From a virus, in IMG/VR virus record IMGVR_UViG_3300035145_002112, positions 1-35,047 of that record: 35,047 nucleotides of DNA. One strand, written 5' to 3'. Below, one piece after another: positions 11,134 to 35,047 of this stretch (its first letter is position 1; each line of letters starts with the position of its first letter). The position numbers and the translations under genes were made by a program. The notes under the pieces are model-generated. The model was not told where the DNA came from. It ran no database searches and worked only from the letters and a program-made list of their open reading frames with translations.

Positions 11134-11438
11134 TATATGATTTCGGGTTTTAAGTTTTGATATTCGGAGAGAGTCAATTCCTCGATCAATCCGGCTTGAA
11201 TCGCAGGGGCAATGAGTTCGTCGTCGGCTGGTGTAAATCGCCATTTATCAATCTCAATAAGTCCTCGTCCGCTCTTATCGTTGGCAAGCTCAAGCTCGTC
11301 GAAGGGCGGCAGGCCGCGCAATGTCACGGCTCTTGTGCCGAGCCCTCGAGGATAACCCCGTGACTGGTCAACTGCGGCAGCGAGTTGGGTGTATGTCGCT
11401 GCCTCGCACTTGAAATACCTGTGTGTTTCGTCGGTCAT
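11133..11438 (-). CDS. Hypothetical protein following the tail fibre gene
   Basis: 101 residues (MTDETHRYFKCEAATYTQLA at the start). Not recognised. The ATG overlaps the stop of the fibre gene (ATGA), so it may be a fibre-associated or fibre-assembly protein. It has no membrane segment. Its stop overlaps the start of the holin candidate. Confidence 0.55.
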   Translation of the reverse strand: MTDETHRYFKCEAATYTQLAAAVDQSRGYPRGLGTRAVTLRGLPPFDELELANDKSGRGLIEIDKWRFTPADDELIAPAIQAGLIEELTLSEYQNLKPEII

Positions 11439-12715
11439 TGCAAGGTGCCGTTAATGTTGATTTCCCAATCTTTTCCTTTGAGGCTAGTGATCGCGGTTGT
11501 CGTCGCAGCACTGAGCGAACCAGTTGATACATCGTAGTCGATATCAATGACGGGATCATTTAGAGTTGTCCCGCTGCTCGTGCCGTCATTTGTCGCCCAT
11601 ATCCCGCTCGCGTCGATGGATGTCAGGATGTTCTCGACGGATTGAGAGGTGAGGGATGAGCAGCCGTCCCATGTTAGGTTAAACACCCCATTGATGATTG
11701 AGGAGGGATTCCAATTATCGAAAAATCCTGCTGGAAAATCTTCAAGGCTGGAGCAACCAAACCAAGTATACCCGAAATTAGTTCCCGATGAAGTATCAAT
11801 TAAAGGAAAGCTGGTAAGGCTTGAGCAATGAGACCAAGCAACAGAAAAATTAGTTCCCGATGAAGTATCAATTAAAGGAAAGCTGGTAAGGCTTGAGCAA
11901 TGAGACCAAGCAGTAAAAAAATTAATTCCCGATGATGTGTCAATCAAAGGAAAACTAGTCAGGCTGGAGCAACCATGCCAAGCCTCACGAAAACTAGTTC
12001 CCGATGATGTGTCAATCAAAGGAAAACTAGTCAGGCTGGAGCAACCAAACCAAGTATACCCGAAATTAGTTCCCGATGAAGTATCAATCAAAGGAAAACT
12101 AGTCAGGCTGGAGCAACCAAACCAAGCAAGAAAAAAATCAGTTTCCGACCCATAATCCTCAACCGCTCCTTTGGTGACGAAGTAGGATTTGCGTTCAGCG
12201 ATCTGAGTCTCGCTCAATTCGTAGTCGAACAAGTAGAGCGCGACAAGATCGTTTGAGAATACGTAATTGTCGGAAATCTTATTCCCGCTGAAATCATGCG
12301 TGCCAGCCGCAAGATTAAGATTGGCAGCGTAGCTACCTTTTTTGGTAGCAAAGAAAACCGTGCCATTTGTGATAGACTCTGCTAGCGTGAACGACATGCG
12401 ATCATTGCTGCCGTCGAATCTGGCGAATGGTCCACCGTTGGCGGCATCAAAAGCGATGGGTTGGTGGGTGGCAGTGGTCTGGGTCGCGTCGATACTGTTG
12501 GCGGTCAGATCGTCAAGAGTCGAGATACCATCCCCTTGCGCTGCGGGTACCCCACCATCCGCAAGCATCGACGACTCGGCCTCGTAGGCGAGAACGGGGT
12601 TGGTGGCTAAGCCAGAAAATGAACCCGGGACATAGAGACCAGCCTCGTTGTAAAGACCTGCCCTATCGACAAGCCCAGCACCACTAAAAAGACCAGCTTG
12701 GTTTATCAATCCCAT
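11435..12715 (-). CDS. Tail fibre/receptor-binding protein with BspA-like repeats
   Basis: 426 residues in four parts. The N-terminus has an xAGL repeat (NQAGLFSGAGLVDRAGLYN). A LamG/concanavalin-like domain follows (about 40-190; FDGSNDRMSFTL, VFFATKKGS). Then come five full 24-residue repeats of the type CSSLTSFPLIDTSSGT plus eight variable residues ending in W, like BspA/DUF285 leucine-rich surface repeats. The end has CSSLTSQSVENILTSIDASG and a beta-rich tail. The repeat block is coded by near-identical 72-base DNA repeats (11751-12110). Position among spike, fibre and lysis genes supports a receptor-binding role. Confidence 0.75.
   Translation of the reverse strand: MGLINQAGLFSGAGLVDRAGLYNEAGLYVPGSFSGLATNPVLAYEAESSMLADGGVPAAQGDGISTLDDLTANSIDATQTTATHQPIAFDAANGGPFARFDGSNDRMSFTLAESITNGTVFFATKKGSYAANLNLAAGTHDFSGNKISDNYVFSNDLVALYLFDYELSETQIAERKSYFVTKGAVEDYGSETDFFLAWFGCSSLTSFPLIDTSSGTNFGYTWFGCSSLTSFPLIDTSSGTSFREAWHGCSSLTSFPLIDTSSGINFFTAWSHCSSLTSFPLIDTSSGTNFSVAWSHCSSLTSFPLIDTSSGTNFGYTWFGCSSLEDFPAGFFDNWNPSSIINGVFNLTWDGCSSLTSQSVENILTSIDASGIWATNDGTSSGTTLNDPVIDIDYDVSTGSLSAATTTAITSLKGKDWEININGTLQ
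11751..12150 (-). repeat. 72-base tandem repeats in the fibre gene
   Basis: Unit boundaries marked by GAGCAA at 11751, 11823, 11895, 11967, 12039 and 12111: five full 72-base units and one partial. About 44 bases of each unit are nearly constant and about 28 bases vary. The variable part codes NFGYTWFG, SFREAWHG, NFFTAWSH, NFSVAWSH and NFGYTWFG. The first and last variable windows code the same residues. Confidence 0.9.
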
Positions 12716-28984: not shown

Positions 28985-29197
28985 ATGTAGTATTGAGAAC
29001 CTTCAATGAAAAGGAGCAAACCGAAAAAAGTTATGACTAGTTTTTTGCGGCGAGGCAAGGGACTCCGGTCGTCTGTTTTGAGAGAGGACCCGCGAGCCCT
29101 AGAGCCACAAGGGCTAGGGGCTGAAAGGACGCATTTCATGTCATGTTTCTGTTGCATTGAATTGCATTGATTTTGCATTTCTAGTCGTCAATTCTGG
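28985..29197. other. Noncoding interval: candidate cos/packaging region
   Basis: 213 bases between the HNH gene and the small terminase gene, without a convincing gene (a 65-codon minus frame is dubious). It holds three TTGCATTGA-type direct repeats (29152, 29162 and a partial at 29173), an imperfect AGCCCT/AGGGCT hairpin (29096-29116) and GC-rich blocks. Position and repeats fit cos and its terminase binding sites. Confidence 0.5.
29158..29169. repeat. 12-base direct repeat beyond the HNH 3' end
   Basis: TGAATTGCATTG, identical to 29980-29991 at the other end of the HNH gene. Confidence 0.7.
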
Positions 29198-29980
29198 TCA
29201 GCTTATACTAAGCAGCAACTCCGGTTGACAATCCACGATTTTTGCTCCCTTGCTTAGATTCTCCTCTGCCCATAGCGGTTGCAGATTTGTGTAGTGTGCC
29301 AGCCTGTTCAGTTCTTCTGGTGTCTTTGCGGAAGAAAGGGGAATGATGTGGTCGATGTGCCATTCTCCAAAATTCTCAAAGGTCATCCCTTTCGTGAATT
29401 GGTTTTCAAGGTGTTTGATGAACATCTCCTGTGAACACCCCAGCACCTCAAAGGTTTTGCTGTCTTTGGTCCAACCTTTGCTTTTGAAGGCTTTTCTGGT
29501 TCTTGATCTGATGGTGTTGGAAAGGCGGAACATTGGATCTTCTCTCATTCTCTTCTTGTATCGAGCGCTTATTTCCTCGCGGTTTTCTTCGCAGTATTTC
29601 TTTTGTCGAGCGCTGATTTCCTCGCGTCTCTCTTCGCGGTATTTCTTTTGTCGAGCGAGGATTTTCTCGCGGTTCTCTTTGTAGCGTTTTTTTCGTCGAG
29701 CGCTGATTTTCTCACGGTTCTCTTCGTAGCGTTTCTTTTCTCGAGCGAGTATTTCCTCACGGTTCTCTTTGTAGCGTTTCTTTTGTTGAGCGAGTATTTC
29801 CTCACGGTTCTCTTTGTGGTGTTTCTTTCGTCGAGCGAGGATTTTCTCGCGGTTCTCTTTATAGTGTTTTTTCTGGCACTCCTTGCAAGATGATTGCAGC
29901 CCGTCACTTGACGATTTGCACTTATGAAACAACTCCACCCCTTTCTCCTCTCCGCATTTCTTACACAGTTTTGTATTCAT
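29198..29980 (-). CDS. HNH endonuclease with zinc finger and tandem repeat linker
   Basis: 260 residues from the ATG at 29980. The N-terminal zinc finger (CKKCGEEK ... CKECQ) is followed by seven 15-residue repeats (KKHYKENREKILARR type, highly charged, probably one long helix) and then the HNH domain near residue 190 (FGEWHIDHIIPLSSA, with YTNLQPLWAEENLSKG). HNH genes next to terminase are often needed for cos cleavage in HK97-like phages; this one could also be a homing enzyme. It is flanked by a 12-base direct repeat (29158-29169 and 29980-29991). Confidence 0.82.
   Translation of the reverse strand: MNTKLCKKCGEEKGVELFHKCKSSSDGLQSSCKECQKKHYKENREKILARRKKHHKENREEILAQQKKRYKENREEILAREKKRYEENREKISARRKKRYKENREKILARQKKYREERREEISARQKKYCEENREEISARYKKRMREDPMFRLSNTIRSRTRKAFKSKGWTKDSKTFEVLGCSQEMFIKHLENQFTKGMTFENFGEWHIDHIIPLSSAKTPEELNRLAHYTNLQPLWAEENLSKGAKIVDCQPELLLSIS
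29557..29871 (-). repeat. 45-base tandem repeats in the HNH gene
   Basis: Seven units of about 45 bases coding the charged 15-residue repeat of the HNH protein. The units are similar but not identical (TCGAGCG, TATTT or GATTT, CTCGCGG, TTCTCTTCG blocks recur). Confidence 0.85.
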
Positions 29981-29991
29981 GAATTGCATTG
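29980..29991. repeat. 12-base direct repeat at the HNH start codon
   Basis: TGAATTGCATTG, identical to 29158-29169. The two copies bracket an 810-base segment containing the whole HNH gene. Confidence 0.7.
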
Positions 29992-30078
29992 TTTGTAATG
30001 CCCCCGAGGTGTTCAAAGAAGGTCGAACGAAACCCGGTCCAGAGACATCCTCTGGCTCCTATGCCCTCGGGAGCAAAA

Positions 30079-30339
30079 TCAAGATTGTTTGATGATTGGT
30101 TGTTCTTGTCTTCTCCTCTCGATTTCCCTCTCGATATACCATCTCGCTTTTTCAAGATCCTCGATAGCATTCACTTTCTCGTCTGCCCTCCAGATGTATT
30201 TAATGGCGTTACCAAGGCAGAATCCCATGTGTTCTGTCACTTGGATGCACTCAATACCCGAGGGGTGTGACTTGTAGTGTGGGGGATGGTTGACGTTGTC
30301 AGGTTGGGGTGAGATCACTCCCGTGATAGTTTCAATCAT
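30079..30339 (-). CDS. DUF3310 protein
   Basis: 86 residues from the ATG at 30339. The block DNVNHPPHYKSHPSGIECIQ, then TEHMGFCLGNAIKYIWRADE and NAIEDLEKARWYIEREIER is the DUF3310 signature found in many phages, sometimes called nucleotide kinase-like. Function unknown; often near DNA metabolism genes. The leader is AACAACAAACGAAAAATAACAATG, A-rich without a clear ribosome site. It is the first gene below the 30.5 kb terminator. Confidence 0.85.
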   Translation of the reverse strand: MIETITGVISPQPDNVNHPPHYKSHPSGIECIQVTEHMGFCLGNAIKYIWRADEKVNAIEDLEKARWYIEREIERRRQEQPIIKQS

Positions 30340-30519
30340 TGTTATTTTTCGTTTGTTGTTAGTTCTAGGATTCGCTTTTTGATACACCCCCCTTACCCCC
30401 CTCATGAAATGAAGTGGACAAGAGGAGCCGACCTCCAGAGCAATGCTTTAGTTCCGTCTCTGGCCTAGCCCCTCGGAACATAAACCCGCCTTTTGATCTG
30501 TGGCCGATTGCGGAACAGG

Positions 30520-30565
30520 GGGCAAAGAAAAGCCCCGCAGGTGGTAGTCTCACCTAGCGGGGCTT
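30520..30565 (-). terminator. Terminator of the early/replication transcript
   Basis: On the minus strand: AAGCCCCGC (30565-30557) ... GCGGGGCTT (30538-30530), a 9-bp stem extended by an inner AGGTG/CACCT stem and a 7-base loop AGACTAC, followed by TTCTTTGCC. One unpaired A separates the stems. Confidence 0.75.
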
Positions 30566-30600
30566 CTCGGTATGCAATAACACAAGAAAGAACTGTCTGA

Positions 30601-30615
30601 GGAGAGACTACCTCC
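30601..30615 (-). ncRNA. Small hairpin whose loop complements the terminator loop
   Basis: On the minus strand GGAG-GTAGTCT-CTCC. The 7-base loop GTAGTCT is the exact reverse complement of the terminator loop AGACTAC (30550-30544). The longer arms 30604-30615 and 30540-30551 can pair at 11 of 12 positions. Confidence 0.55.
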
Positions 30616-30677
30616 AACAATCTGAACTTCGCCCGTGCCCGTGTTTCTTGCAATTATTTTATTTAGGAAAACTGAAC

Positions 30678-30887
30678 TTATTCCTTCTGATGCCAAATCC
30701 AAACCCTTCGGAGATACGAGTCACACTCGTCGGTCGGGTAGTATCCTGTTGGTTCCTCATCCTCTGGGTCGTTCGGATAGCCGTGAGGAATGAATAGTGA
30801 AAAGCCCTTGAGATCAACCCCCTGTCCACATAGGGGTCCACCCAAAAGGACATCCGTGGTTGAGTGTTCAAGCTCTTCGTAGGTCAT
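30678..30887 (-). CDS. Hypothetical small protein
   Basis: 69 residues from the ATG at 30887 (MTYEELEHSTTDVLLGGPLC), with PNDPEDEEPTGYYPTDECD and the end RRVWIWHQKE. Not recognised. The start overlaps the upstream gene by 20 bases. Last gene before the noncoding interval and terminator. Confidence 0.6.
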   Translation of the reverse strand: MTYEELEHSTTDVLLGGPLCGQGVDLKGFSLFIPHGYPNDPEDEEPTGYYPTDECDSYLRRVWIWHQKE

Positions 30888-33993: not shown

Positions 33994-34665
33994 TTATCCT
34001 AAGAAAAATGCCGTTTGTAACTCGATGGGCGCGTCGGCGTCGTATCGGCGGCTTTCGCCCTTGGGGTATGGTTCCACCGCGTAGCGGAGTGCATCCAGCA
34101 TCGCGATCCGTTGTTTCTTGTTTCCGCATGCATAGACATATCGGTGTTTGCGGGGGCGTTCCTCTATGTAGAAATCGTCCCCATATTTTTCGCGCATCCA
34201 TTCTGCGCGGTTGTCTTGTCCCCTGCTTTGATCTACCACGGTTGCCCCGTTAAGGTGTTCCCGGCCTTTTATCTTCCAGTCCGTGCGCTTCGCACTCAGT
34301 CCAGTGTATAGAAAGTTTGTCGCTTGGTAGATGTATCCGACATGCCCTTGTGCTGTGTCGGCGTAGCTCACGACCAGCGAGGGCTTCGGGAGCATCCTCA
34401 AAGATTGCCCGACGAGTCGGCTTGCCATGTTCTTTTCGCTCACGCAGCAGAGTCGATTTAGTTCCAACACATGCTTGGCCCATTCCTTACCCGCTATCCC
34501 TTCCCGTAGCTTTGCGCTTGCTGGCGTTCCGTAAGTCACTACTCCTTGAAGCTCTCCACCCCGATACGCTCCGAACGCATACGACACAGAACACATTCTG
34601 CGAGCGTAATGACGCTTTAACAGCCAAGGTTTGGCGTCTTTGGTTGGTATCGGTTCAATCGTCAT
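33994..34665 (-). CDS. Mom-like DNA modification protein
   Basis: 223 residues from the ATG at 34665. The block GVVTYGTPASAKLREGIAGK, then HVLELNRLCCVSEKNMASRL and SLVVSYADTAQGHVGYIYQA with TNFLYTGLSAKR matches the phage Mu Mom family, an acetyltransferase-fold protein that converts adenine to a modified base (N6-carbamoylmethyl type in Mu) and blocks restriction. Residues of the ELNRL and SYADT motifs are present. It would protect the genome together with the methyltransferase at 2101-3069. The upstream extension of the frame overlaps the junction gene and is unlikely. Confidence 0.8.
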   Translation of the reverse strand: MTIEPIPTKDAKPWLLKRHYARRMCSVSYAFGAYRGGELQGVVTYGTPASAKLREGIAGKEWAKHVLELNRLCCVSEKNMASRLVGQSLRMLPKPSLVVSYADTAQGHVGYIYQATNFLYTGLSAKRTDWKIKGREHLNGATVVDQSRGQDNRAEWMREKYGDDFYIEERPRKHRYVYACGNKKQRIAMLDALRYAVEPYPKGESRRYDADAPIELQTAFFLG

Positions 34666-34699
34666 AACAAAAAATGAAAAAACTTTCCTAGGGTTCTGA

Positions 34700-35047
34700 T
34701 CAAAGATCGTCCGGGGTGAGAATTTTAACGTGTGCGGGTGCTTTGGTGGAATTGGACTGGGCGTCTCCACCTCGTTCTTGGGATCTGGATAGCCAGTTGG
34801 TCAGAAACCGCCTCCATTGCTTTTTCTTAGCCTTGGCTGGATTTGATCTCAGCCATTCGGAGGATGCTGCGATCTGTCGTCTGAGGTCACAAGCTGGATA
34901 GGCTTCCTTCCATTGTTCCATATCTTGATCGGTGATTCCTGTCCATCCTTCGGCCACAGACCAGGCGATAGCCCGCGTCGGGGCAAAAGCTTCTCCTTCT
35001 CCTTCTCCTTCTCCTTCTCCTTCTCCTTCTCCTTCTCCTTCTCCTTT
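34700..35047 (-). CDS. Phage replication protein, C-terminal part (continues from base 1)
   Basis: This is the other end of the junction gene; the part at 34890-35047 duplicates bases 1-158. Read from the Gly-Glu linker it gives the C-terminal region containing TDQDMEQWKEAYPACDL, a basic stretch (KAKKKQWRRFLTNWLSRS) and the end KILTPDDL. The pattern of an N-terminal winged helix, a low-complexity linker and a short C-terminal domain ending in WLSR is common in phage replication proteins that recruit helicase. An internal ATG at 34957 would give an 85-residue protein. I see no reason to treat that as a separate gene, because the frame is open across the join. Confidence 0.7.
   Translation of the reverse strand, partial: KGEGEGEGEGEGEGEGEGEAFAPTRAIAWSVAEGWTGITDQDMEQWKEAYPACDLRRQIAASSEWLRSNPAKAKKKQWRRFLTNWLSRSQERGGDAQSNSTKAPAHVKILTPDDL
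34890..35047. repeat. Right copy of the 158-base terminal overlap
   Basis: Duplicate of bases 1-158 with one mismatch (T at 35016, C at 127). Base 34889 is followed on the circle by base 1. Removing this copy gives a unique length of 34,889 bp. Confidence 0.9.

Follow-up and report, generated by a model that had tools for sequence, protein, structure and literature searches.

A putative kissing-loop leader element in a phage genome and related elements with private seven-nucleotide loop pairs

Why should the loop of a phage terminator be exactly complementary to the loop of a hairpin that precedes it on the same strand? This question is raised by a locus on the minus strand of a stretch of viral DNA of 35,047 nt (IMG/VR record IMGVR_UViG_3300035145_002112, positions 1–35,047), which was analysed as a whole and is referred to here as the window. 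The first hairpin (30591–30622), when drawn in the register that permits kissing, has a two-part stem, with the lower part formed by GATTGTT/GACAGTT (30622–30616 and 30597–30591) and the upper part by GGAG/CTCC (30615–30612 and 30604–30601), the latter enclosing loop 1, GTAGTCT (30605–30611), which is 7 nt long, closed by a G-C pair and has U at position 2. A linker (30569–30590) leads to hairpin 2, a stem of 17 bp with one bulged T (30527–30568) that reads GAGAAGCCCCGC-T-AGGTG-AGACTAC-CACCT-GCGGGGCTTTTC from 30568 to 30527; its apical hairpin, AGGTG-AGACTAC-CACCT, presents loop 2, AGACTAC (30544–30550), also 7 nt long and G-C closed. Together with the T-tract TTTTCTTT (30524–30531), hairpin 2 constitutes an intrinsic terminator placed in a putative leader. 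Re-reading the DNA returned the same positions and letters for hairpin and terminator as the original prediction, and the complementarity that it had claimed between the two 7-base loops is exact, GTAGTCT and AGACTAC being perfect reverse complements whose match extends to 9 bases once the closing G-C pairs are included. Its further count, 11 paired positions in 12 across some 52 bases, describes the same match as the 88% complementarity of two 16-nt arms, which lie 44 nt apart and both on the minus strand.

When considered from an energetic point of view, the segment folds far below shuffled sequence (z -4.9, with none of 200 shuffles as good), and hairpin 2 alone reaches -29.9 kcal/mol. Under a nested model the two-hairpin fold, in which both loops are largely unpaired, is calculated at -54.3 kcal/mol, as against -45.9 kcal/mol for a long duplex between the arms; this duplex, considered as an antiterminator, was rejected as a candidate, being ~8 kcal/mol worse than the two hairpins in that model. 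The 7-bp loop-loop helix amounts to about -7.7 kcal/mol if only stacking is counted. The form of hairpin 1 drawn originally is a possible one, but it is not the form favoured by ViennaRNA, which, with a register preference computed without kissing energy, assigns 2% to the kissing register GGAG/CTCC and 98% to a shifted register, GAGG-UAGUCUCU-CCUC, atop the 7-bp lower stem. With the shifted loop UAGUCUCU, six of the seven kissing pairs are still possible.

The element is located between an 82-aa gene that ends at 30678 and a DUF3310 gene (30339–30079, minus strand; Pfam PF11753, E 7.5e-17), a member of a phage nucleotide kinase-like family, and the next gene start lies ~190 nt beyond it. It had rightly been placed between the replication genes and the DUF3310, HNH and terminase genes. 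Neither a recognisable promoter nor a nearby Shine-Dalgarno sequence was seen for the element, nor was a promoter-like site found on the opposite strand near it; since no promoter was found, the small RNA of about 120 bases envisaged in the original prediction is unsupported as a transcript. A contig assembled from a different metagenome (IMGVR_3300042731_004088, L002) contains the identical 461 nt, and the element is thus not an assembly error. Among the nearest IMG/VR relatives (97% identity in DnaB, 100% in terminase), the contigs end on either side of the region, at about window positions 29050 and 31350, so that none spans the element. The HNH gene, DUF3310, the element and the small genes around it look like a strain-variable locus. 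As for other features of the window, an HNH-like ORF (29198–30016) contains an internal tandem repeat of ~12 residues or slightly more (ENREEILARxKKRYK), an ORF among the tail genes (11435–12715) carries repeated CSSLTSFPLIDTSSGTNF units with resemblance to BspA-like leucine-rich repeats, and a DNA-modification gene near the record end (33994–34770) encodes a Mom family protein (PF25680, E 1.7e-40).

Searches by descent or by exact sequence were negative within their scope. No direct relatives of the region were found in named phages, no 15-mer copies beyond chance elsewhere in the window, and only chance hits by pattern scans with exact arms; in Rfam, the whole window gave sub-threshold matches only, with no family at gathering score. 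No such element was present in MT835513, C75C1 and three Roseobacter phages (relatives in capsid, portal or terminase), in Moraxella Mcat17 (a DUF3310 relative), or in clostridial prophage early regions with PF09524.

Taken alone, the loop match of the window could be luck. A different kind of relative is provided by G029 (also L247; IMGVR_3300032038_000063), a phage contig of 70.9 kb that was fetched solely because it contains the window's terminator stem pattern, CTAGGTG-N(5-9)-CACCTGCGGGGC, which is silent on the sequence of the loop. Seven elements of this design are found in the contig, each with a 7-base loop pair of its own: E (loop 1 at 735, GTGGTAG/CTACCAC), A (2082, ATGACGG/CCGTCAT), B (2437, GTACCAG/CTGGTAC), D (2798, GTAGGAG/CTCCTAC), C (3903, ATTGCGG/CCGCAAT), F (4440, ATTGGCC/GGCCAAT) and G (29419, GTTGCAG/CTGCAAC). 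Dinucleotide shuffles of G029 returned three hits over 20 trials, compared with the seven real elements, which fold below shuffled energies with z from -2.4 to -6.4. An alignment of five of them, spanning the -10 box to the start codon, has the loop-loop helix paired in 35 of 35 cells; in this helix, five pairs out of seven have changed on both sides.

The G029 elements also share a setting. In all seven, hairpin 2 stands directly before a Shine-Dalgarno sequence and ATG, and a predicted -10-like box (TATAAT, TAAAAT or TGnTACAAT, consensus matches read from the sequence) precedes hairpin 1 by ~7–10 nt, from which it follows that the RNA would start at hairpin 1. The linker of six of the seven contains TGnTACAAT or a near form, which may represent a second promoter producing an RNA without hairpin 1, whereas the window linker (30569–30590) has no clear promoter motif; in element G, the TGnTACAAT box sits upstream of hairpin 1. 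A T-tract follows hairpin 2 in five of the seven, the exceptions being D and E, where hairpin 2 is consequently not a terminator. Among the genes that follow the elements are those for an HTH_17 protein and for proteins without known function, and a NinB-like and a DnaD-like replication protein are encoded nearby. The 19-nt tail of elements A–C, GGGTGTTTTGTTTTAGGAG, occurs as well in leader terminators of Oscillospiraceae MAGs, which fits a reading of the G029 elements as candidate transcription attenuators; as a route to further elements, this tail was abandoned, as it led to T-box-like leaders without kissing loops. Element D (L247:2776-2887) shows a peculiarity of its own, in that hairpin 1 can pair, through its 3′ arm, with the Shine-Dalgarno stretch, GTAGGAG, which repeats loop 1, and loop 2 could pair with either copy; a three-way translational switch is a possible reading of this arrangement. 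A covariance model built from five G029 elements and run against 197 genomes from the order of a rumen Ruminococcaceae MAG returned ordinary terminators or single hairpins only. Ahead of a start codon elsewhere (L262:1501-1582), TATAAT, the hairpin ACGTTG-TGTTCGG-CAACGT and TATACT resemble the first half of a G029 element, the second hairpin being absent.

The second relative of the design ranked next after the window in a scan of all the sequences analysed; it is a single element of L112 (IMGVR_3300047392_000072), of which L116 has a near copy. Its hairpin 1 carries the loop CTAGCCC and is followed 60 nt later by the terminator ACCCGTCTGAG-GGGCTAG-CTCGGGCGGGT-TTTTT. Like the window element, and in the same orientation, it lies upstream of a DUF3310 gene, whose product in L112 and L116 is ~77-80% identical to that of the window. 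Relative to the window, both partners have been replaced in three of the seven kissing pairs, with no pair lost. The stretch after the terminator (CCCCTGTTC...ACAGAYCAAAAG, 30490–30523 in the window) is identical at 22 of 32 positions at a near-equal offset, a level attained by none of 2000 shuffles with the offset restricted; free local alignment of the two flanks was not significant. Common descent of the L112 and window elements is suggested by these similarities. Neither a -10 box before hairpin 1 nor a Shine-Dalgarno sequence and ATG right after hairpin 2 was seen in the L112 element. A hairpin just upstream of it (L112:3545-3580) falls short of the gathering score of the Rfam abiF RNA (33 bits, with 37 required) and may be merely terminator-like.

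Nine elements can be compared in all: that of the window, the seven of G029 and the one of L112/L116, so that the independent relatives found number only two, one multi-copy and one single. Their kissing helix is paired in 63 of 63 cells, with six of the seven positions changed on both sides, a count to be read in the light of seven of the nine being paralogues or neighbours within one contig and of the full pairing being partly by construction, as A, B and C were found by a first loop-match scan and L112 by a later one. The remaining four G029 elements were not chosen for loop matching, D being the pattern hit itself, E having been read from neighbouring sequence, and F and G coming from a promoter-motif search; all four match at 7/7. 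The covariation score is 1.063, as against 0.236 +/- 0.068 for shuffled pairs and at most 0.21 with slid partners. Each loop 1 fits its own loop 2 at 7/7, and the best fit to a foreign one is 5/7. Independent variation of the loops had been named beforehand as the outcome that would speak against a kissing pair, and in the relatives of the design the loops are found to change together with complementarity kept.

Several further features recur across the nine. All 18 loops have G-N7-C closure, T-tracts follow hairpin 2 in seven elements, and the spacing of the hairpins ranges from 40 to 61 nt. U occupies position 2 of loop 1 in all nine, within U-N-R in eight. Loops that initiate kissing between RNAs are usually marked by a U-turn motif, YUNR (PMC4485353), and loop 1 bears a likeness to it rather than a match, as most loops have R, not Y, before the U. 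The window element has the complementary 7-nt loops, G-C closure, U at position 2 and spacing of the class, the definition of which was drawn from these same elements; it is without the -10 box before hairpin 1 and the Shine-Dalgarno sequence and ATG after hairpin 2 seen in G029, extras that are not required for the class.

The rarity of the design was gauged by scans. In 4.09 Mb, with both strands included, 672 hairpins were terminator-like, and a 7-base kissing partner was found only for the window element, whose hits are redundant copies, and for two elements of G029; for the other T-tailed hairpins of the window, upstream complement to the loop amounts to 5 bases at most. A strict rule, drawn up post hoc, required G-N7-C twice, reverse-complement loops and a hairpin 2 of at most -18 kcal/mol. 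Applied to 2.45 Mb of real sequence, it yielded nine distinct matches, which are exactly the nine elements, and applied to 7.34 Mb of shuffled sequence it yielded one, which gives ~0.005 matches expected by chance per window under a criterion written after the elements had been seen. Looser rules bring in background matches (~6 per Mb at one setting), none of which has a strong second hairpin apart from the class elements.

Because the loop sequence changes while complementarity is kept, it is base pairing that appears to be selected, and because each element has its own loop sequence, a sequence-specific protein cannot explain it. To judge from this comparison of sequences, the kissing pair of the window is very probably real and under selection. 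As hairpin 2 is a terminator, mostly with a T-tract, the pair would act on termination or on what follows it; that modulating termination is its main job is a tentative proposal, given a little less than an even chance. On balance, the window element appears to be a cis-acting kissing-loop leader or attenuator belonging to a phage RNA class, and this putative class can, with modest confidence, be described as a 5′ hairpin followed 40–61 nt on by a long GC-rich hairpin, usually an intrinsic terminator, the two having mutually pairing 7-nt loops.

Mechanistically, hairpin 1, once folded, would dock co-transcriptionally onto the terminator loop as that loop leaves the polymerase. Docking might then alter the speed or completeness with which the terminator stem closes and would thereby set the fraction of read-through into the next gene, that is, towards DUF3310, HNH and terminase in the window and into single early genes in G029. 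The inclination is that docking would help rather than hinder termination, since a pre-formed partner holding the loop should favour nucleation of the stem. For elements D and E, a translational effect on the adjacent Shine-Dalgarno sequence is more likely, given the absence of a T-tract. The docked state would keep both stems, so that the leader RNA, once complete, would form a compact kissing complex.

Retention of both stems in the docked fold, as well as folding far below shuffles (z -4.9 in the window, -2.4 to -6.4 in G029), would also suit an RNA whose kissing pair mainly shapes or protects the terminated product. Such a leader or 3′-end small RNA of ~100 nt might be compact, nuclease-resistant or dimerising, with hairpin 1 bound to hairpin 2 of another copy, and may act in trans; private loop codes would stop cross-pairing among several such RNAs. 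This explanation is nevertheless unlikely, as the G029 elements are placed as gene leaders before a Shine-Dalgarno sequence and not as stand-alone genes. A translational device, in which the kissing complex at the end of the 5′ leader gates a ribosome-binding site behind hairpin 2 in the manner of the IncI repZ pseudoknots, is quite unlikely for the class: the abutment of hairpin 2 on the Shine-Dalgarno sequence in 7/7 G029 elements, the lack of a T-tract in D and E and the ability of the hairpin 1 3′ arm of D to pair with the Shine-Dalgarno sequence argue for it, but the window and L112 elements have no closely following start codon and a T-tract is present in 7/9 elements.

It might also be held that the G029 family is real and that the window loops were matched by luck. 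The window element came from a scan that selects odd features, has neither promoter boxes nor an adjacent Shine-Dalgarno sequence, and relaxed criteria yield a handful of background hits per Mb. Coincidence is nonetheless improbable when set against the post hoc strict expectation of ~0.005 hits per window, the G-N7-C closure, U at position 2, loop size and spacing that the window shares with the others, the location of G029 through the stem alone, and the occurrence in L112 of a similar element ahead of a DUF3310 gene, as in the window. Finally, a feature acting or arising at the level of DNA, be it a pair of operator or recombination sites or an inverted duplication, is highly improbable even though both sites, as DNA, are inverted copies of GGWGGTAGTCTCWCC, because a protein would need a fixed sequence whereas the shared 7-mer differs in every element, a turnover that rules out an operator or recombination site, because the stems of hairpins 1 and 2 differ, leaving inverted-repeat gene conversion no explanation, and because the window has no further copies.

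The reading as a kissing-loop attenuator has several partial precedents. RNA I and RNA II of ColE1 have two fully complementary 7-nt hairpin loops, and the comparison with them made in the original prediction is apt for this geometry; it fails for the arrangement, since the window loops are not an antisense pair but lie on one strand, where the hairpins, 44 nt apart, would pair intramolecularly and in cis. Phage P4 CI RNA immunity combines leader RNA pairing with premature termination, as is proposed for the window element, but involves a processed, trans-acting RNA. Guanidine-II riboswitch loops are short and conserved (ACGR), in contrast to the 7-nt loops of the present class, which are different in each element; the window loops GTAGTCT/AGACTAC are not ACGR and there was no Rfam match. 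In this riboswitch, loop-loop kissing has been proposed between two tandem leader hairpins (PMC7544219). In pT181-type attenuators, kissing hairpins decide between termination and read-through with a specificity that derives from loop sequence (PMC3753616), but the partner there is a separate antisense RNA, whereas in the present class the 5′ hairpin of the transcript itself would be the partner. For IncI-alpha repZ, an intramolecular pairing of leader loops just before the ribosome-binding site is attributed to Asano and Mizobuchi in PMC10724649; the system differs in concerning a plasmid replication gene, translational control and an antisense RNA competitor, which are not seen here.

The closest working likeness is found in the corrinoid (cobalamin) riboswitches, where an L5-L13 kissing loop controls a terminator or a ribosome-binding site (PMC10653944, PMC10907184) and, as proposed here, a hairpin loop docks on that of an expression-platform hairpin within one leader. 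The window element differs in being without the ligand-binding four-way junction, in that the kissing hairpin is itself the terminator, and in that the 7-nt loops vary freely; no cobalamin aptamer matched in a permissive Rfam scan of 30300–30700, and none at gathering score window-wide. None of these known families includes the window element according to the tests applied. In Rfam and in word searches of the open-access literature, subscription papers being outside their reach, no description was found of a leader hairpin that kisses the loop of a phage terminator within one molecule, and any novelty is to that extent provisional.

Kissing loops and attenuators are both known, whereas a terminator whose own loop enters into an intramolecular kiss, a design present seven times in one phage with private codes, was not found described. 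Before the work of PMC10653944, the effect of the kissing loop on terminator formation was unknown for transcriptional corrinoid riboswitches, and the design seen in the window makes it testable whether a kissing loop modulates terminator formation, a gap stated in that paper. The most far-reaching reading, somewhat short of an even chance, is that of a hitherto undescribed family of leader RNAs in phages, with a private 7-nt kissing code between hairpin 1 and the terminator for each gene or operon, the window member having diverged and controlling the passage from replication to packaging. If true, several orthogonal, protein-free attenuators would operate side by side in one genome, and they would give natural evidence for the orthogonal kissing-loop regulators that synthetic biology has built by hand (PMC3753616).
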